Notes: a model not told the origin generated them from the letters alone. Numbered from the stretch's first letter, positions 18,787-50,615 are shown. The stretch is 64,000 nucleotides of DNA from Aquiflexum lacus (GCF_015476655.1 NZ_JABFHF010000002.1:62001-126000), one strand, 5' to 3'. Numbers and translations: made by a program.

Positions 18787-19018
18787 AGGATGTTTGGAAA
18801 ATTAATCCTGCTTGGTTGATCTTTTTTAAAATGTTTTTCAAAAGCCTTTCTGTAAGGTCGTCTTTAAACTTAAATTTTCAAGAATCTTTTTAGGTTTTTT
18901 ATGCCTTTAGGGTTTATTAATAGTTCCGGTCCATCGTCATAGATTGATTCTATCAATTTTGTATTCTCTCAATACCCTGATAAAAAATTCAGATTCATAG
19001 AAAATATCAATTAAATTT

Positions 19019-19080
19019 TATTTGGATTAAATCTAAATACACTGATATTTGTCACATTATTTTAAATCAATCTAAATAAT
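19019..19080 (+). promoter_or_regulatory. Haem-uptake promoter with two iron-box-like palindromes
   Basis: TTG (19022-19024) and GATATTTG (19044-19051) are 19 nt apart, a near-consensus promoter. Palindrome 1, 19019-19039, has core TTGGATT-A-AATCTAA and covers the -33 element. Palindrome 2, 19056-19080, has a perfect right half AATCTAA, a weak left half, and overlaps the start codon at 19079. A cleaner copy lies at the TonB-receptor start (22897-22911). The core resembles sites of DtxR-family or Fur-family iron repressors; which regulator binds is unknown. Confidence 0.65.
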
Positions 19081-19930
19081 GATAAGATTCATTCTATTAT
19101 TCCTTCTTGGAACTACAATCTTTTCCTGTGCTGAAAGGAAGACTGAAGTCACCGCAGATAAAGTTAAGATAATCACAGCAGGTGGTACCATCACAGAAGT
19201 TGTCAGCGAATTGGGGTTTGGAGGAGACATTATTGCGACTGACATTACCTCAACCTTCCCTGCCAACATGCAGGAATTGCCTTCTATTGGTTACCGTAAT
19301 CAGATCAAAGCCGAGGGTATTTTGGCCTTAGGACCCGATTTGGTCTTGGCGGAGGAGGGATATATGTCTGAAGACGTGGTCAGGCAGTTGCAAGCTGCTG
19401 GACTTCAAGTCCAGTTTTTTGAAAAGCCCAAAGATATCAATGGTACCTATAAGATTGTCTTTGAAATCTCCAACTTCTTAGAAGTGCCTGAAAAAGGGAA
19501 GGCCATCAATGCTTCTATAGAAGCTGACATCAAAGAATTGCAAAATTATTTGCAAGCTCAATCTACAAATCCAAGTATGGCTTTTGTCATGGCAAGAGGT
19601 CAGGAAATGGTGTTTGTTGCGGGCGAGGAGACCTTTGCGGAATCGATGTTCAATATGGCAGGGCTAGACCATGTGGGTAAAGGATTCAAAGACTTTATTC
19701 CACTTACTCCTGAAGCTTTGATCTCCATGAATCCTGATTACCTGCTCTTTTTTGATTCGGGAATTCAGTCTATAGGAGGAATGGATGGTGTCAAAAATAT
19801 CAGAGGTATAGAAAATACCACCGCTTTCAGGCAGGGACAGATTCTTTCTTTGGACGGACAATACCTATCAGGATTTGGCCCCAGAGTTGGTAAAGCTGCA
19901 TTGGAACTTGCAAAATCCGTGAGAAAATAA
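19079..19930 (+). CDS. hmuT: Haem ABC transporter substrate-binding lipoprotein (HmuT-like)
   Basis: 283 residues. Signal MIRFILLFLLGTTIFSC with a lipobox cysteine at residue 17. Class III periplasmic-binding fold: KIITAGGTITEVVSELGFGGDIIATDITSTFP, then the HmuT-type 'LPSIGYRNQIKAEGILALGPDLVLAEEG', whose Tyr is the position used as haem ligand in known HmuT proteins, then a long helix. It receives haem in the periplasm and delivers it to the permease encoded 4 nt downstream. First gene of the haem operon. Confidence 0.88.
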   Translation: MIRFILLFLLGTTIFSCAERKTEVTADKVKIITAGGTITEVVSELGFGGDIIATDITSTFPANMQELPSIGYRNQIKAEGILALGPDLVLAEEGYMSEDVVRQLQAAGLQVQFFEKPKDINGTYKIVFEISNFLEVPEKGKAINASIEADIKELQNYLQAQSTNPSMAFVMARGQEMVFVAGEETFAESMFNMAGLDHVGKGFKDFIPLTPEALISMNPDYLLFFDSGIQSIGGMDGVKNIRGIENTTAFRQGQILSLDGQYLSGFGPRVGKAALELAKSVRK

Positions 19931-19934
19931 ACCC

Positions 19935-20993
19935 TTGATACAGACACTGACATATCGCAAAAATAAGACTCAGAATCTCATTCTTGGATTGTTGGGTAGT
20001 GCTTTGATGGTAGTTGTGGTCATTTCACTATCCTTGGGAGCTTTTCATATTCCTGTTTATAATGTCTTAGGGGTTCTTATGGATACTATAGGATTAGGTA
20101 TTACGGATTTTTCCCCACAGCAATCCAATGTTTTGCTTCATATACGTTTGCCTAGGATAGTGATGGCAATTCTTGTCGGTGGAGGCCTAGGAATTACCGG
20201 GGCGGCTTTGCAGGGGCTGTTTAGAAATCCCCTTGTCGAACCGGGCCTTATTGGGGTGAGTAGTGGAGGAGCCTTATTTGCAGTGATATTCATTGTATTT
20301 GGAAGTGGTTTTCCGGTCTTGAGCTATTTCGGAGGAATAGGCCTACCGCTTTTTGCCTTTATTGGAGGTCTCATCAATACCTCCTTGGTATATAAGCTGA
20401 GCAGTTCAGCCGGAAAGACAAATATTTCTTTATTGATTCTCGCAGGAGTTGCTCTAAATGCACTTTCAGGGGCACTGATCGGATTGGTGATTTTTTATGC
20501 GGATGATGCCGCTTTGAGGAATTTCACATTTTGGAGTTTGGGCGATGTTGGAGGGGCCAATTGGGATAAGGTAGGGATTGCATTTCTGCTGATATCAGGT
20601 CCGGCAATATTGGTCACCTCACAGTTTAAAAATCTCAATGCCCTTTCAATAGGTGAAAATGAGGCATTTCACATGGGTGTAGATGTCCAGAAAGTAAAAT
20701 ACATCTTGCTATTTTCAAGCGCGCTGATTGTTGGAACGGCGGTGTCTTTAACAGGAACTATAGGATTTGTCGGCCTAATCGTTCCGCACTTGATTAGAAT
20801 GATGTTTGGAGCCGACCATAGATTGGTTCTTGCGGGATCATTTCTATTGGGTGCCTGTTTGTTGACTATTGCCGATTTATTGGCGCGGACCATTGTCATG
20901 CCTTCTGAAATGCCCATCGGCATCATCACCGCCATCATCGGTGCTCCATTTTTTATCTGGCTTATTATCAACGTAAAAAAAATCAGATCCTGA
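19935..20993 (+). CDS. hmuU: Haem ABC transporter permease (FecCD family)
   Basis: 352 residues with a probable TTG start 4 nt after hmuT; the next in-frame ATG would remove the first membrane segment. FecCD features: LLHIRLPRIVMAILVGGGLGITGAALQGLFRNPLVEPGLIGVSSGGALFAV, GTIGFVGLIVPHLIRMMFGADHR and a final AIIGAPFFIWLI. About ten membrane helices. It forms the inner-membrane haem channel with the ATPase encoded next, whose ATG follows after one nucleotide. Confidence 0.9.
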   Translation: MIQTLTYRKNKTQNLILGLLGSALMVVVVISLSLGAFHIPVYNVLGVLMDTIGLGITDFSPQQSNVLLHIRLPRIVMAILVGGGLGITGAALQGLFRNPLVEPGLIGVSSGGALFAVIFIVFGSGFPVLSYFGGIGLPLFAFIGGLINTSLVYKLSSSAGKTNISLLILAGVALNALSGALIGLVIFYADDAALRNFTFWSLGDVGGANWDKVGIAFLLISGPAILVTSQFKNLNALSIGENEAFHMGVDVQKVKYILLFSSALIVGTAVSLTGTIGFVGLIVPHLIRMMFGADHRLVLAGSFLLGACLLTIADLLARTIVMPSEMPIGIITAIIGAPFFIWLIINVKKIRS

Positions 20994-20994
20994 T

Positions 20995-21795
20995 ATGTTA
21001 CAAGCAAATGATATCCATTTCTGCATCCGGAATATGCCTATTGTGGACCAGGCAAGCGTCTCTCTCGCTCCAGGTGAATTGACAGTAATCCTAGGTCCCA
21101 ATGGTGCCGGTAAATCTACTCTGTTCAAAATCTTATCAGGAGAGATTCCATGTAAGTATGGAAATGTCGCATACAACGGATCTCCAATTACCGGATTCTC
21201 TCCCAAAAATCTTGCCCTCGTCAGGGCGGTAATGCCTCAGCATAGCTATTTATCATTTCCATTCAAAGCTTTGGAAGTAGTTGAGTTGGGATTACTCTCG
21301 GGGGGTAATTCATTTCGTCAAGACCTAGTGGAAGAGGTCATGACCGAAACCCATACCTGGCACCTCAAGGACAAACTTTACGGGAACTTGTCAGGTGGTG
21401 AAAAGCAAAGAGTCCAACTCGCCAGGGTGTTGACCCAGATTTGGGATAAAAAACCTTTTCCAAGATACCTGCTTTTGGACGAACCTACTTCCAGTATGGA
21501 TATTGCATTACAACATCATGTACTTAAGATAATCCATAAAATAAAGAAAAGAAACATCGGTGTCCTTGCCATTTTGCATGACCTTAATCTTGCTGCCAAC
21601 TATGCTGATAAGGTAATCTTACTCAAAAAAGGAAGAATCCTTTATCAAGGAGCCGTCAAAGACGTGATGACAGCTACAAATCTGGAGAAAATATTTGAGC
21701 ATCCTATTCAGGTATTCTCCGGCTCAGAGGATTCTCCCATCATCATTCAAAGTATACCATTTATTCAAAACCATTTAGAAACCAAACTTGCATAA
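20995..21795 (+). CDS. hmuV: Haem ABC transporter ATP-binding protein
   Basis: 266 residues. Walker A GPNGAGKST near residue 35, Q-loop in AVMPQHS, signature LSGGEKQRVQLARVL, Walker B LLLDEPTSSMD and switch H in AILHDLNLAANYADK. The order and 1- to 4-nt spacing with hmuT and hmuU show one translation unit. Energises haem import. Confidence 0.93.
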   Translation: MLQANDIHFCIRNMPIVDQASVSLAPGELTVILGPNGAGKSTLFKILSGEIPCKYGNVAYNGSPITGFSPKNLALVRAVMPQHSYLSFPFKALEVVELGLLSGGNSFRQDLVEEVMTETHTWHLKDKLYGNLSGGEKQRVQLARVLTQIWDKKPFPRYLLLDEPTSSMDIALQHHVLKIIHKIKKRNIGVLAILHDLNLAANYADKVILLKKGRILYQGAVKDVMTATNLEKIFEHPIQVFSGSEDSPIIIQSIPFIQNHLETKLA

Positions 21796-21798
21796 ACT

Positions 21799-22845
21799 AT
21801 GGAATCTACCATGCAATTTTCCTCAGTAGCTTCTTTAAAAGAAGCCTGGGAAGAACTTAAAAAACAACAGCCTCAACTGAGGGTAAGAGATGCCGCACAA
21901 AAGTTAGGCGTATCCGAAGCGGAACTGATTGCTTCCACTATTGGACCTGAAACGGTCAGGCTAAACGAAAACTTTGCAGAACTTATCATCGCCTGCAAAA
22001 GCCTTGGCAAAGTAATGGCCCTGACCAGAAATGAAGGTTGCGTATTGGAACACAAAGGTAATTTTCAGAAAATCGACCTGATGGGTCAGGCACCCAATCA
22101 GGTGGCGACCGTGATCGGCCCGATCGAGCAGCGGATCTTTTTCAGCGGCTGGAAATTTGGTTTTGCTGTGACCAACCATACACCAAGAGGCACAATGAGG
22201 AGCTTCCAGTTTTTTGACAAGGCAGGTGTTGCAGTTTTGAAAATTTATCTTCAGGAAAAAAGTAATGAAGATGCTTATGATAAGATTTTGAATGATTTCA
22301 GAAGCAATGACCAAAACGCTGATCTGGAAGTTGAAGCATATCCTAAGTCAGAACATGCCAAAGAGATTGATCTGGCAGCTTTTACGCATGAATGGGAAAA
22401 TATGAAGGATACCCATGATTTCTTTGGGATGCTCAGAAAGTACAATGTACATAGACTTGATGCTGTCAAATGGATCAATGACAAATGGGCTTATGAAGTG
22501 GACAGACTATCGGCAAGAAAAATTGTAGAAACTGCCTCAGCTGAGAAAATGCCTATCATGATTTTCGCTGGTAACAAAGGAAATATACAGATCCATCAAG
22601 GAAAAGTAAGAACCATCCGTCAGATGGGAAATTGGCTCAATGTCATGGATCCTGACTTCAATATGCACCTGAATGAGGACATCATAGATTCGGCTTTTGT
22701 TGTTCACAAAAATACTTCAGACGGTTTGGTTTCTGCTTTGGAGCTTTTTGACAAAGAAGGGGAAATGATCGCTCAATTCTTTGGATTGAGGAAGCCGGGA
22801 ATACCACAATTGGATGCTTGGAAAGGCCTAATTGATAGTCTTTAA
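21799..22845 (+). CDS. hmuS: Cytoplasmic haem-handling protein, HemS/HmuS family
   Basis: 348 residues, the full two-repeat length of HemS/HmuS/ChuS. The halves begin at about residues 10 and 185 and share 'W..L......VR...R..G......IA' and 'GPI/VMD......LNE' patterns (VIGPIEQRIFFSGWKFGFAV; WLNVMDPDFNMHLNEDIIDSAFVV). The family binds imported haem and, in some members, degrades it. This is the proteobacterial type, not the CobN-like chelatase called HmuS in Porphyromonas. 3 nt after hmuV. Confidence 0.88.
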   Translation: MESTMQFSSVASLKEAWEELKKQQPQLRVRDAAQKLGVSEAELIASTIGPETVRLNENFAELIIACKSLGKVMALTRNEGCVLEHKGNFQKIDLMGQAPNQVATVIGPIEQRIFFSGWKFGFAVTNHTPRGTMRSFQFFDKAGVAVLKIYLQEKSNEDAYDKILNDFRSNDQNADLEVEAYPKSEHAKEIDLAAFTHEWENMKDTHDFFGMLRKYNVHRLDAVKWINDKWAYEVDRLSARKIVETASAEKMPIMIFAGNKGNIQIHQGKVRTIRQMGNWLNVMDPDFNMHLNEDIIDSAFVVHKNTSDGLVSALELFDKEGEMIAQFFGLRKPGIPQLDAWKGLIDSL

Positions 22846-22855
22846 ACTTAATCCC

Positions 22856-22876
22856 GCCGGGAGGAATCCTCCCGGC
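22856..22876. other. Strong intercistronic hairpin between hmuS and the haem receptor
   Basis: GCCGGGAGGA (22856-22865) and TCCTCCCGGC (22867-22876) are perfect complements around one base. An A-run, not a T-run, follows on the + strand, so it is not a classic terminator. It begins 11 nt after the hmuS stop and may stabilise or pause the transcript. Confidence 0.6.
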
Positions 22877-22892
22877 AAAAAAATTTGAGATT

Positions 22893-25196
22893 ATGATTAG
22901 ATTTAATCTAAATAAAATAGCATTTTTCTTCCTGTCTTTATTATTTTGCTCCGAACTTTCTGCTCTTGAAGGGGATGGGGAAAAGAAAATTCTTGATAGC
23001 TCAGGAAAACCTATCATCCATGCTTTGATCAAACCTGAAGGCCAAAAAGCGCTTGCTGTAGATGCTTTGGGTAAAATCGAAATTCAAAATCCTTCCGAAA
23101 CGATAACCGTATTTGCTTTGGGTTTTGAAAGCCGCCAATTGACTTGGCAGGAATGGCTGTTGGATGAGGAAATTATCCTTCAAGAGAAATCGGGTAATCT
23201 TCAGGAGATAGTAGTGGCGGCGACCCGTACAGAACGTAGTGTTGAACAACTACCCATGCCCGTAACGGTATTGAATGCTGAAAAGATTAAGGAAACAGGG
23301 GGCATTCGTTTATCCGAGATTTTGAGGGAGCAAACAGGCTTACAGATTACTTCAGATCATGGTTCGGGGCTGCAAATGCAGGGCTTGGACTCGGATTATA
23401 TTCTGATTCTTCTTGATGGAGAACCCATGATAGGGCGAACCGCCGGCACCTTCGACTTAGACCGTATTTCTGTTTCCAATATTGATCGGATCGAAATCCT
23501 CAGAGGGCCTTCGAGTGCCATTTATGGCAGTGAAGCCATGGGCGGCGTGATCAATATAATTACCAAATCAGGTAACAATAAATCCAACGTGGATCTAGGC
23601 CTTCGGCACCGCTCCTTCAATTCCTGGAATCCCTTTTTGGAATTAGGAGTCGGCAAAAAAAACTGGAGTACTCAGGTTTTTCTGGATCATTTTCGGACAG
23701 ATGGATTTGATCTTACTCCCGAAACAGTGGGCCAAACCCAAAATCCTTTTCAGGCCTCTACCGGACAGCTTAAAATTTCAGGTGACCTTTCTGAAAAGTT
23801 AAATGTCAGTGTTTTTGGCAGAGGATATCTGGAGACATCGCAAGGCATTCTTCAAACTAACGGTAATTCAGGTGTTGAAATTCTTGACTTGGGTAATGAA
23901 AGAAGGGATTTCAACTTAAACCCTACCATACGTTTTAAGCCCGATGCAGATTGGACACTGACGCTTCGGGGCATGAGCTCATGGTTTTCAACCAATTCGG
24001 ACACCAGGTTCAGAAATGGTGGAGAAGTTTTTGACTTTCAGTATTTTGCACAATTCTATCATCGGACTGAACTGCAGACTGACTTTCAGGCCAATTCTAA
24101 AAACCTGATCACTTTGGGTATGGGGCAATTGATAGAAACGGTGGAAGCCACCCGCTATGAAGAAAAAAACCGATTTGACGCGGGCTACTTTTTCCTTCAG
24201 CATTTATGGGATCCTATTCCCAAAATCAATGTAGTTACCGGCCTGAGAGCTGATTTTCACAGTCAATTTGGAAATCGACTGAGCCCAAAAATTTCAGCGC
24301 AATATCAGATTTCTGAAAGCTTCAGTTGGCAGGCCTCTATGGGTACCGGGTTCAAAACACCCGATTTCCGGCAATTATTGTTGAATTTTAACAATGCTGC
24401 TTCCGGATACTATGTTTTTGGTGCCAATCTTGCTGAGCGGGAAATTTCCAGATTGCAGGAAGAAGGCTTGATAGCACAAATTCTAATTGATCCTCAAACA
24501 CTGGGAGAACTAAATGCCGAAACATCCAGGTCAATCAATACCGGATTTCGATGGAAACCAACAACACAAAGTCTCATTCAGTTAAATGCTTTCCGCAATG
24601 AAATAGATAACCTGATAGAAACAGCTCCAATTGCCCAATTGGTCACCGGACAGAATGCATTTTCCTATTTCAATATCCGTAGCGTAGTCACCCAGGGAAT
24701 AGAAGTTGACGCCCAAATTAACTTACTGGATAATCTCAGTCTGAGTGCGGGTTACGCTTTTTTGGATACCAAAGATATGGAGATGCTTGAGCGCATTGAA
24801 AATGGGGAAATTTTTAAGCGGAATTCACAAAACCAAACCCAACGTGTCACCCGTGCAGATTATGGAGGACTATTCAATAGAAGTCGTCATAGTGGAAACT
24901 TCAAAGTGAATTACCGTGACAACCTTACTGAAATCAATTGGTCCCTGAGGGCCATTTACAGAGGTAGGTTTGGTTTTGCAGACCTAAACGGAAACCTCAT
25001 CCTTGATGACGACAGAGAATATGCCCCGGGATGGGTAAGCATAAATATTACTACCTCGAAGACATTTGAAAATGGGCTTTTTCTGGAGGCAGGAGGTACC
25101 AATCTTTTAAATGCTGCAACACCGGCTCAACCGAATAATCCCGGCAGGGTGCTGTTTCTAGGAATCAAAATACCAATTCTAAATCTTATAAACTAA
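22893..25196 (+). CDS. hmuR: TonB-dependent haem/haemoprotein receptor
   Basis: 767 residues. N-terminal signal (KIAFFFLSLLFCSELSALEG), then a carboxypeptidase-regulatory-like segment (~30-100), a TonB-box-like LQEIVVAATRTE (~103-114), a plug domain (LPMPVTVLNAEKIKETGG ... RIEILRGPSSAIYGSEAMGGVINIITK) and a 22-strand barrel ending in NNPGRVLFLGIKIPILNLIN. Haem specificity is inferred from its operon partners. The start codon overlaps a TTAGATT-T-AATCTAA palindrome. Confidence 0.9.
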   Translation: MIRFNLNKIAFFFLSLLFCSELSALEGDGEKKILDSSGKPIIHALIKPEGQKALAVDALGKIEIQNPSETITVFALGFESRQLTWQEWLLDEEIILQEKSGNLQEIVVAATRTERSVEQLPMPVTVLNAEKIKETGGIRLSEILREQTGLQITSDHGSGLQMQGLDSDYILILLDGEPMIGRTAGTFDLDRISVSNIDRIEILRGPSSAIYGSEAMGGVINIITKSGNNKSNVDLGLRHRSFNSWNPFLELGVGKKNWSTQVFLDHFRTDGFDLTPETVGQTQNPFQASTGQLKISGDLSEKLNVSVFGRGYLETSQGILQTNGNSGVEILDLGNERRDFNLNPTIRFKPDADWTLTLRGMSSWFSTNSDTRFRNGGEVFDFQYFAQFYHRTELQTDFQANSKNLITLGMGQLIETVEATRYEEKNRFDAGYFFLQHLWDPIPKINVVTGLRADFHSQFGNRLSPKISAQYQISESFSWQASMGTGFKTPDFRQLLLNFNNAASGYYVFGANLAEREISRLQEEGLIAQILIDPQTLGELNAETSRSINTGFRWKPTTQSLIQLNAFRNEIDNLIETAPIAQLVTGQNAFSYFNIRSVVTQGIEVDAQINLLDNLSLSAGYAFLDTKDMEMLERIENGEIFKRNSQNQTQRVTRADYGGLFNRSRHSGNFKVNYRDNLTEINWSLRAIYRGRFGFADLNGNLILDDDREYAPGWVSINITTSKTFENGLFLEAGGTNLLNAATPAQPNNPGRVLFLGIKIPILNLIN
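22897..22911. promoter_or_regulatory. Perfect iron-box-like palindrome at the receptor gene start
   Basis: TTAGATT-T-AATCTAA: two perfect 7-bp arms around one base, 2-16 nt inside the reading frame after the ATG at 22893. The same core occurs at 19022-19036. It could allow separate iron control of receptor expression. Confidence 0.6.
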
Positions 25197-25204
25197 AAAA
25201 TAAA

Positions 25205-25813
25205 ATGAAAACAATGCAAAAATTTATCTTCACAGTTGGGATTATTACCTTCTTATTTTCCTGCAACAACAATGATGAACCTGCTCCGGTAGTACCTCTT
25301 GAGGCCACTTTGGTGGAAGATCTGGCAGCTCCCAATGACCTGATTGATCGAACAACCGGTCAAGTAATTGAAGAGCGTCCATTTCAATATTTCAGCATGG
25401 AGCAAAATGCCATTGTAAGCGAAAATGAAAATTGGGATTTGGCTTTCAAAGGGACTACCATCCGTGTCAATAGTGCCAATAATGTCAGCGCTGCCATTGT
25501 TACTGGAATTTTCGAGGAAATCACTGAAGTTCCTGCTTCTGCTGTGTTTGCTAAAGATACAGCCACTTCCTTTGCGATTCCGACTGGTAGTGGAACAGGC
25601 TGGTACAATTACAATTCCACGACATTTACGGTAACGCCTATTCCCGGCCGTGTGATTTTAGTTCAAACCACAAAAGGGAATTATGTCAAAATGGAAATCC
25701 TAAGTTATTACAAAGGTAATCCACCTGTAGAAGAAATCGACCCAAGGATGACTCCAAGTGGACATTACACCTTCCGGTTTATCCTACAGCCAAATGGAAG
25801 TACTAAGTTTTAA
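25205..25813 (+). CDS. HmuY-family haem-binding lipoprotein
   Basis: 202 residues. Signal MKTMQKFIFTVGIITFLFSC with a lipobox cysteine at residue 20. HmuY-like features: 'FQYFSMEQNAIVSENENWDLAFKGTTIRVN' near residues 60-90, a TGSGTGWYNYN loop and the final strands GHYTFRFILQPNGSTKF. HmuY proteins are surface haemophores that capture haem and pass it to a TonB receptor, here encoded 8 nt upstream. The His or Met ligands used by characterised HmuY proteins cannot be placed by eye. Confidence 0.85.
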   Translation: MKTMQKFIFTVGIITFLFSCNNNDEPAPVVPLEATLVEDLAAPNDLIDRTTGQVIEERPFQYFSMEQNAIVSENENWDLAFKGTTIRVNSANNVSAAIVTGIFEEITEVPASAVFAKDTATSFAIPTGSGTGWYNYNSTTFTVTPIPGRVILVQTTKGNYVKMEILSYYKGNPPVEEIDPRMTPSGHYTFRFILQPNGSTKF

Positions 25814-48833: not shown

Positions 48834-50615
48834 ATGAACAAGCATATTTATGAATCTGGGCTAATCGGTAACTGTTCCTACATTGCCCATGTTGAAAAGA
48901 ACACTAATATTTCGTGGCTTTGCCTGCCTCGCTTTGACTCGGATTTTATTTTCGGTGGAATGCTGGACAGAAAAAAAGGTGGTGAGTTTACCATTTTACC
49001 AGAAGGGTCTGATTTTGAATCTACTCAATCATATTTAGAAAATACCAATATACTTGAAACCATAATTAATACTGGACAGGATAGTTATAAAGTGACTGAT
49101 TTTGCCCCTCGTTTCAAGAATTTCGACAGGTATTTTAAACCCTTGATGCTGATCCGGAAGATAGAACCTCTTACCGGAGCCTCAAGGATTAAGATTACCT
49201 GTAAGCCAGTTGCGCAAAGAGGAACAAAAACACTTACGCCCAGTATTGGTAGCAATCATATTCAGTATATGGGTGAGGATCAGGAAATCAGACTGACTTC
49301 AAATGCAGCCCTTACTTACATCTGTGAAGGGAAATCTTTTGTGCTTCAGCGGCCAATTTATCTGGTTTTCACCTATGGAAGGCCATTGGAAGCGCCGATT
49401 GAATCCACATCTGAGAGATTTCTGCAAGCAACTACGGATTACTGGCAATCATGGGTCAAGTCCACCAGTATTTCCGGATTTCATCAGCGGTTGGTGCTTC
49501 GCTCTGCCCTGATCCTAAAAATCCACCAATATGAGGACACCGGTGCCATCATAGCCGCCTCCACCACATCCCTTCCGGAGTCTCCAGGCTCCACAAGGAA
49601 TTGGGATTACCGATATTGTTGGATAAGGGACAGTTATTATACCCTAACTTCTTTTAATGGTGTTGGTCACTTTGAAGAGCTCGAGAAATATTTTGAATTC
49701 ATCCAAAACCTGCCGACAGGTGCAGATGGAAGATATCAACCACTTTATTCTATTACAGGAGAGAGTTTGTTGATTGAAGAAATCTCTGATTTGGAGGGTT
49801 ATTTGGGAAACAAGCCCGTCAGATTTGGCAATCAGGCCTATACCCATATTCAAAATGATCTGTATGGACAGGTGTTGGTTTCCCTTTTACCCCTGTATTC
49901 AGATCAGAGGTTCACCTCAAAGGAACGAAGTCATTCTGAACCCATGATCATGAATCTTTTGGATAAAATCGAACAGACGATGGATGAAAAGGATGCAGGT
50001 TTATGGGAGTTTAGGAGTCTTGCCCAAGAACATTGCTATACATTCCTTTTTCATTGGGCAGGTTCATTGGCAGCCGCCAAAATCGGGAAACGTCTCAAAA
50101 ACGAAAAGATGTATGAGAAAGCAATGTACTTGAAGGATCTTGCAGTGGCAAAAATAGAAGCTTGCTATCTCCCTGACAGGAAGGCCTACTCGCAGGCCAT
50201 TGGCGCAAAACATATGGATGCTTCTACCTTGCAGTTGATTACCATGGGTTACTTTGGAGATGATATAGAGCGGGCAAATAATCACCTTAAGGAATTGGAA
50301 AAAGAGCTGCTTTCAAAAGATTACCTCTTTTTCCGATACAAGCATATGGATGATTTCGGGGTACCTGAGACCACATTTTTGATCTGTGCATTTTGGTATA
50401 TTGAGGCATTGGCTTGTGTGAATAGGCTGGATGAGGCAGTTGAAGGTTTTGAAACATTGATCAAATATTCCAACCACCTCAATCTATTTTCAGAAGATGT
50501 GGATCAGGCTACAGGTAGTCAATGGGGGAATTTTCCACAGGCTTACTCCCATGTAGGATTGATGAATGCGGCTTTCAGAATTGGTAAAAAGTTGGATCGG
50601 CCTAATTTTCTATAA
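48834..50615 (+). CDS. Glycoside hydrolase family 15 protein (glucoamylase or trehalase type)
   Basis: 593 residues. N-terminal beta-sandwich (IGNCSYIAHVEKNTNISWLCLPRFDSDFIFGG), then the (alpha/alpha)6 barrel with STRNWDYRYCWIRDSYYTLTSF, GLWEFRS bearing the likely acid Glu, and FSEDVDQATGSQWGNFPQAYSHVGLM with the likely base. No signal peptide, so cytoplasmic. It is convergent with a fused trehalose synthase/phosphatase gene 168 nt away. GH15 enzymes include trehalases, so trehalose is the first substrate to test; glucoamylase is the alternative. Confidence 0.87.
   Translation: MNKHIYESGLIGNCSYIAHVEKNTNISWLCLPRFDSDFIFGGMLDRKKGGEFTILPEGSDFESTQSYLENTNILETIINTGQDSYKVTDFAPRFKNFDRYFKPLMLIRKIEPLTGASRIKITCKPVAQRGTKTLTPSIGSNHIQYMGEDQEIRLTSNAALTYICEGKSFVLQRPIYLVFTYGRPLEAPIESTSERFLQATTDYWQSWVKSTSISGFHQRLVLRSALILKIHQYEDTGAIIAASTTSLPESPGSTRNWDYRYCWIRDSYYTLTSFNGVGHFEELEKYFEFIQNLPTGADGRYQPLYSITGESLLIEEISDLEGYLGNKPVRFGNQAYTHIQNDLYGQVLVSLLPLYSDQRFTSKERSHSEPMIMNLLDKIEQTMDEKDAGLWEFRSLAQEHCYTFLFHWAGSLAAAKIGKRLKNEKMYEKAMYLKDLAVAKIEACYLPDRKAYSQAIGAKHMDASTLQLITMGYFGDDIERANNHLKELEKELLSKDYLFFRYKHMDDFGVPETTFLICAFWYIEALACVNRLDEAVEGFETLIKYSNHLNLFSEDVDQATGSQWGNFPQAYSHVGLMNAAFRIGKKLDRPNFL

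Follow-up and report, generated by a model that had tools for sequence, protein, structure and literature searches.

The haem-uptake operon of Aquiflexum lacus, as found in the analysed window (one strand of 64,000 nucleotides, GCF_015476655.1 NZ_JABFHF010000002.1:62001-126000), is best explained as a Fur-controlled unit: Fur boxes probably sit at the hmuTUVSRY promoter, and a further, putative internal Fur operator lies in the receptor gene hmuR. The palindrome repeated at these places is, judging from its sequence, very probably a Bacteroidota-type Fur box. The genes, named by their Pfam matches, form the operon hmuT-hmuU-hmuV-hmuS-hmuR-hmuY (19079-25813, + strand; Table 1), and among named relatives Cognataquiflexum and Aquiflexum, of the family Cyclobacteriaceae, come closest, with HmuT proteins 79-84% identical. 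A preliminary description of this DNA had placed the palindromes at both ends of the haem operon; the operon actually continues via hmuR and hmuY to 25813, and the downstream palindrome (site 3) is therefore internal, at the hmuS/hmuR junction. The receptor is exchanged inside this fixed operon: a receptor type only about 30% identical is found in the hmu operons of many relatives (L174, L181, L182, L184, L187-L193, L197), the upstream genes and the first eight hmuR codons being kept.

Table 1. Predicted regulatory elements and genes of the hmu locus, in coordinates of the 64,000-nucleotide window.
Feature	Coordinates	Strand	Support
Conserved element ATAGAAAATATCAATTAA, at about -59 to -42, just upstream of site 1	18997..19014	+	28 hmu promoters
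Site 1, putative Fur box ATTTGGATTAAATCTAAAT, containing the -33 TTTG	19020..19038	+	exact family-motif match; 28/28 close hmu operons
Predicted promoter: -33 TTTG (19021-19024), N19, -7 box GATATTTG (19044-19051)	19021..19051	+	Bacteroidota-type; 26/26 operons
Site 2, weaker putative Fur box ATTTTAAATCAATCTAAAT	19059..19077	+	best match 36-39 bp from site 1, 28/28
hmuT, periplasmic haem-binding protein	19079..19930	+	Pfam Peripla_BP_2 9.2e-25
hmuU, permease	19950..20993	+	Pfam FecCD 2e-89
hmuV, ATPase	20995..21795	+	Pfam ABC_tran 3e-24
hmuS, HemS/ChuX-type haem-handling protein	21799..22845	+	Pfam HemS 5.4e-71
GC hairpin GCCGGGAGG-AAT-CCTCCCGGC, then AAAAAAATTT	22856..22876	+	predicted -19.6 kcal/mol
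Site 3, putative internal Fur box GATTAGATTTAATCTAAAT, hmuR codons 1-7	22895..22913	+	24/25 hmuR starts; recoding test
hmuR, TonB-dependent receptor	22893..25196	+	Pfam TonB barrel 5.5e-35, Plug 4.5e-24
hmuY, haemophore-like lipoprotein	25205..25813	+	Pfam HmuY 2.2e-10

The palindromes first noticed are real, with some corrections. The perfect copy, TTAGATT-T-AATCTAA (22897-22911), overlaps the beginning of the TonB-receptor gene, whose ATG is at 22893; the copy with one mismatch, TTGGATT-A-AATCTAA (19022-19036), is on the -33 region before hmuT. Both are as originally reported. The half-perfect copy near hmuT also exists (19059-19077, its right half alone intact), but the overlap with the hmuT ATG that had been claimed for it does not hold, as site 2 stops one base short of this codon (19079). 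The repeated unit, given before as 15 bp, is a 19-bp inverted repeat of 9-1-9 geometry, ATTTAGAwTnAwTCTAAAT, to which site 1 conforms exactly and sites 2 and 3 with two mismatches to the relaxed form. If no more than one mismatch is allowed, the 15-mer matches the window twice against 0.08 matches expected, a count reached by none of 100 shuffles; with three mismatches, the 12 matches found against 8.9 expected are at chance level and uninformative, and the half-perfect copy taken alone is therefore without significance. What makes site 2 convincing is a box at the same place in 28/28 close hmu operons (27 from relatives and that of the window). A matrix for the 19-bp unit (ATTTRGATTnAATCYAAAT) was built on 57 sites, from relatives and from site 1 of the window operon itself, and excludes any site-2 or site-3 sequence. 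Across the whole 64 kb, its three top-ranked places are exactly the three copies of the preliminary description: site 1, a member of the training set, scores 30.7 bits, site 3 20.3 and site 2 8.6, the next place reaching 5.5. A fourth match in the window, at 49690, falls within a long reading frame and was taken as chance. Palindromes arising by chance in AT-rich DNA would account for a count at three mismatches no higher than expected, but hardly for the excess at one mismatch, the deep conservation and the regulon-wide enrichment described below; the conservation excludes this explanation, whose probability we regard as negligible.

Site 1 recurs with few changes, as ATTTGGATTnAATCYAAAT, in all 28 close hmu operons; two more distant ones (L200, L201) have no such box, and in a third (L202) site 1 stands alone. 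Its left half is invariably ATTTGG in the close operons, probably because a Bacteroidota promoter has its -33 TTTG there: in 26/26 operons scanned, hmuT is preceded by TTTG, a spacer of 19 bases (20 once) and a -7 box of the form nAnnTTTG. In Flavobacterium, the sequence TAnnTTTG has been placed at -12 to -5 (PMC9723704); using this placement, transcription is predicted to start near 19056 and site 2 to cover about +4 to +22, over the predicted start. Sites 1 and 2 both overlap this predicted promoter, whereas no promoter is visible at site 3. The distance between sites 1 and 2 is 36-39 bp in 28/28 close operons, exactly 39 bp in 19 of them and 39 bp in the window. Comparable arrays are found elsewhere: the FecA-like receptor gene of the same genome is preceded by three boxes with spacings of 46 and 40 bp, and two further genomes of the class carry box pairs spaced by 39 and 40 bp. 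Site 2 is a weak box, and site 3 is imperfect in several relatives. Upstream of site 1, the segments ATAG, TC and AATT are near-invariant at a fixed distance in the 28 hmu promoters, which come from different genera. Written as ATAGA-W5-TCAATTAA, this element has many exact copies in the family that are hmuT promoters; it was tested as a second regulon motif and rejected, and since the remaining matches are few, no wider regulon is claimed for it. The element ATAGAAAATATCAATTAA looks like a candidate activator site or UP-like element specific to hmuT, or may be a degenerate Fur box.

The preliminary description had proposed to ask whether other copies of the motif lie before iron genes or a regulator gene, and the answer of the scans is positive: in the window's own genome, copies accompany ferric ABC, TonB-receptor and suf genes, and in relatives they precede ferritin, haem oxygenase and hemA genes and, weakly, several fur genes. 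A search of 148 Cyclobacteriaceae genomes for the 19-mer, allowing up to one mismatch, gives 176 matches against 15 for the reversed pattern (totals summed by hand from the per-genome table), and at the level of the class the relaxed form ATTTRGAWTnAWTCYAAAT is found exactly in 94/295 genomes, against 3 for the reversed control, with sites preceding sufA-like, haem-oxygenase-like, hemA-like and receptor genes. In about 26 of 30 inspected loci, the site adjoins a haem, iron or Fe-S gene; the gene types, whose names were mostly read from sequence and not from a profile search, comprise hmuT, TonB receptors, the hmuR start, an FbpA-like binding protein, ferritin, sufB, PepSY and a lipoprotein of the imelysin-associated type. 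Pattern searches of the own genome put the best places at hmu, at an FbpA-like ABC operon divergent from an oxyR-like gene, at the FecA-like receptor and between an lrp-like gene and sufB, the last site recurring in four relatives. The distribution of the sites suggests that the suf operon may be under iron control, and weak boxes (2-3 mismatches) that precede several fur genes at distances of up to about 120 bp suggest, not strongly, a possible autoregulation.

Some further regularities were seen around these boxes. A Fur-type box stands about 220 bp upstream of sufB in five genomes (L003 1501-1517, G000:C110; L085, L086, L100, L101). A small Cys-containing protein recurs beside Fur boxes in several families (L104, L215, L228, L230) and is a candidate member of the iron regulon; a gene for a NarL-type response regulator also recurs by such boxes (L083, L106, L107, L213, L230), in two cases divergent from ferritin.

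The question as to which regulator binds these sites is answered most readily by Fur. In Riemerella anatipestifer YM, the Fur box is ATTTAGAATTATTCTAAAT, electrophoretic mobility shift assays showed binding of purified Fur to several promoters, among them those of hmuR and the dicitrate receptor, and deletion of fur raised hmuY and hmuR (PMC5609570); from this literature, we consider it highly probable that Fur is both the binder and the repressor here. A paper on R. anatipestifer CH-1 quotes the E. coli consensus as the only one; a literature search on ATTTAGATT found nothing relevant, and a likeness to the alphaproteobacterial Irr box, which the literature search did not confirm, was dropped. 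Fur, rather than DtxR/MntR, is favoured by the 9-1-9 geometry, by the regulon and by the Riemerella box. The own genome encodes two Fur-like proteins and one Zur-like protein, Fur is present in all good-quality genomes of the family, and the paralog in the arrangement spoT-fur-purA is present throughout the relatives; this universal paralog between spoT and purA is most likely the acting Fur, the data singling out neither of the two paralogs. In terms of DNA recognition, 28/28 readable Fur paralogs have Asn in the recognition helix at a position that is Asn in Bacillus subtilis PerR and Arg in Fur, and the choice of Asn or Arg at this residue is reported to determine whether a PerR box or a Fur box is recognised (PMC8638851). 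The alignment gives the Fur of the window genome a Fur-type Glu at the sensing position, and such a hybrid of PerR-type Asn and Fur-type Glu would agree with a box that starts with TT and not TG.

The preliminary description had judged the core closer to sites of the DtxR/MntR type than to classic Fur boxes. A regulator of the DtxR family, whether an iron-responsive DtxR or MntR, has in its favour the resemblance of the half-site TTAGATT to TTAGGTT and the existence of one DtxR-family gene in the own genome and nearly everywhere in the family, but this sole protein scores best as MntR, and an affinity to DtxR/MntR is therefore not supported. In relatives, the DtxR gene frequently has manganese-type ABC or mntH genes as neighbours, whereas the regulon consists of iron, haem, Fe-S and ferritin genes and a near-identical box is bound by Riemerella Fur; moreover, one motif-bearing genome (G100, 99% complete) showed no DtxR match among those of its candidates that were scored. 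No motif copy with up to two mismatches lies near the own DtxR gene or at 30 DtxR loci of relatives, and in place of TTAGG/CCTAA half-sites at DtxR spacing the sites have an AGATT consensus and a 1-bp spacing. Presence or absence of the regulators across the 148 genomes does not discriminate, because the Fur and DtxR families are both nearly universal. With an MntR-like protein, no linked motif copy, the geometry, the regulon and the Riemerella box all set against it, binding by a DtxR-family protein is very unlikely.

Site 3 begins at ATG+2 of hmuR, about 4 kb downstream of the promoter. It is recognisable at 24/25 receptor starts as opposed to 0/101 starts of other genes of the operon, with a conservation of about 1.7 bits per base across the site that falls below 0.5 directly after it. 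The actual hmuR codons fit the Fur matrix better than synonymous recodings weighted by codon usage in 23/26 loci (p<0.05; mean z 2.6), the genomes being related and the 26 loci hence not independent; in several operons, the first eight codons are the same or nearly so even where the receptor is only about 30% identical. These residues are conserved as protein too (the signal-peptide start MxR-x-NLNK), and A/T-rich starts aid initiation, the start region after the hairpin being A-rich; the site could thus have been retained for the protein or its translation, its likeness to a Fur box being secondary. As the codons beat their synonymous versions in most loci and no other gene start of the operon looks alike, we find this explanation improbable. 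The idea of an internal control point, raised when the palindrome was first noticed, is upheld in so far as the site is conserved by the above measures.

As to its possible action, site 3 lies in a transcribed region without a visible promoter of its own. The pattern TTTG-N17-22-TAnnTTTG with up to one mismatch occurs within 200 nt before hmuR in 0/26 operons, and the identical scan is positive before hmuT in 26/26. That the site serves a small internal Fur-repressed promoter for hmuRY, in keeping with the usual location of Fur boxes in this family at promoters near the start codon, is rather unlikely in the face of this contrast. In most of the 26 operons, hmuR is preceded by a GC hairpin with an A/T tract after it (22856-22886 in the window), the sequences of the stem varying; the hairpin is not a standard terminator, because A and not T comes after the stem. 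Given a conserved site, the absence of a visible promoter and the presence of a hairpin, the likeliest role of site 3 would be that of an internal operator at which Fur acts as a roadblock to elongation, a reading to which we give somewhat less than an even chance. There is precedent in B. subtilis, where intragenic Zur boxes are cis-repressive and an elongation roadblock was proposed, with roadblocks by CodY and CcpA cited in the same work; the cis-repressive effect was not relieved by deletion of zur (PMC4324032), which calls for caution in reading site 3 as a roadblock, and a roadblock can be weak. Site 3 might instead be a true Fur site that acts by forming a DNA loop to sites 1 and 2, or by reinforcing the local loading of Fur: nearly every close operon combines two good promoter boxes with one 4 kb off, but it is the start codon and the hairpin that keep a constant position and not the distance to the promoter, and we regard looping or loading as unlikely, if somewhat less so than an internal promoter.

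On the proposed mechanism, when iron is plentiful, iron-loaded Fur would bind site 1 over the -33 element and, a little beyond the transcription start, site 2, shutting off the single hmuTUVSRY promoter. Fur on site 3 would stop those RNA polymerases that leak through, just after the GC hairpin has been transcribed, and the receptor/haemophore pair would thereby be kept lower than hmuTUVS. A more speculative extension, which we put forward only tentatively, is that site 3 and the hairpin together form a Fur-dependent attenuator, with iron-controlled termination within the operon: Fur on the first codons of hmuR would halt RNA polymerase with the GC hairpin near the RNA exit channel, and the module would have been retained through replacement of the receptor. 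If true, this attenuator module would constitute the junction for interchangeable receptors.

The box itself is known in kind; its Cyclobacteriaceae form, the fixed tandem and the conserved intragenic box with its hairpin appear, from the papers searched, to be new. They provide a usable iron-regulon consensus for a large part of the Bacteroidota, in which the definition of Fur boxes is poor, and the deviation from the E. coli box gains a testable reason in a Fur with a PerR-type Asn. A conserved intragenic Fur operator would let the operon express the outer-membrane receptor apart from the inner-membrane transporter.

The closest known relative is the box of Riemerella anatipestifer YM, which shares the 19-bp length, the 9-1-9 dyad and the outline ATTTAGA...TCTAAAT, and is likewise found upstream of hmuR/hmuY and of receptor genes, no more than 100 bp from the start codon (PMC5609570). 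It differs in two symmetric inner positions where A and T are swapped (ATT/AAT here, AAT/ATT in Riemerella), positions that are interchangeable across the class; in addition, the boxes described here are paired 36-39 bp apart and have an additional copy in the receptor gene. The classical Fur box (GATAATGATAATCATTATC; 7-1-7 TGATAATnATTATCA) is alike in length, dyad geometry, AT-richness and location at iron-uptake promoters, whereas the present box has TT for TG at the outer core and AGA for ATA, a deviation that would fit the PerR-type Asn that these Fur proteins carry in their recognition helix. Boxes of DtxR, IdeR and MntR have the form TTAGGTTAGCCTAACCTAA. With this consensus the present sites share the outer TTAG...CTAA, but they have another half-site spacing, no GG/CC core and no link to a DtxR gene. 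The intragenic Zur boxes of B. subtilis (PMC4324032) also place a box of the Fur superfamily within a reading frame, with cis-repression and a proposed roadblock; by comparison, site 3 is located at a start codon in the middle of an operon, is conserved over many genera and has a hairpin ahead of it.
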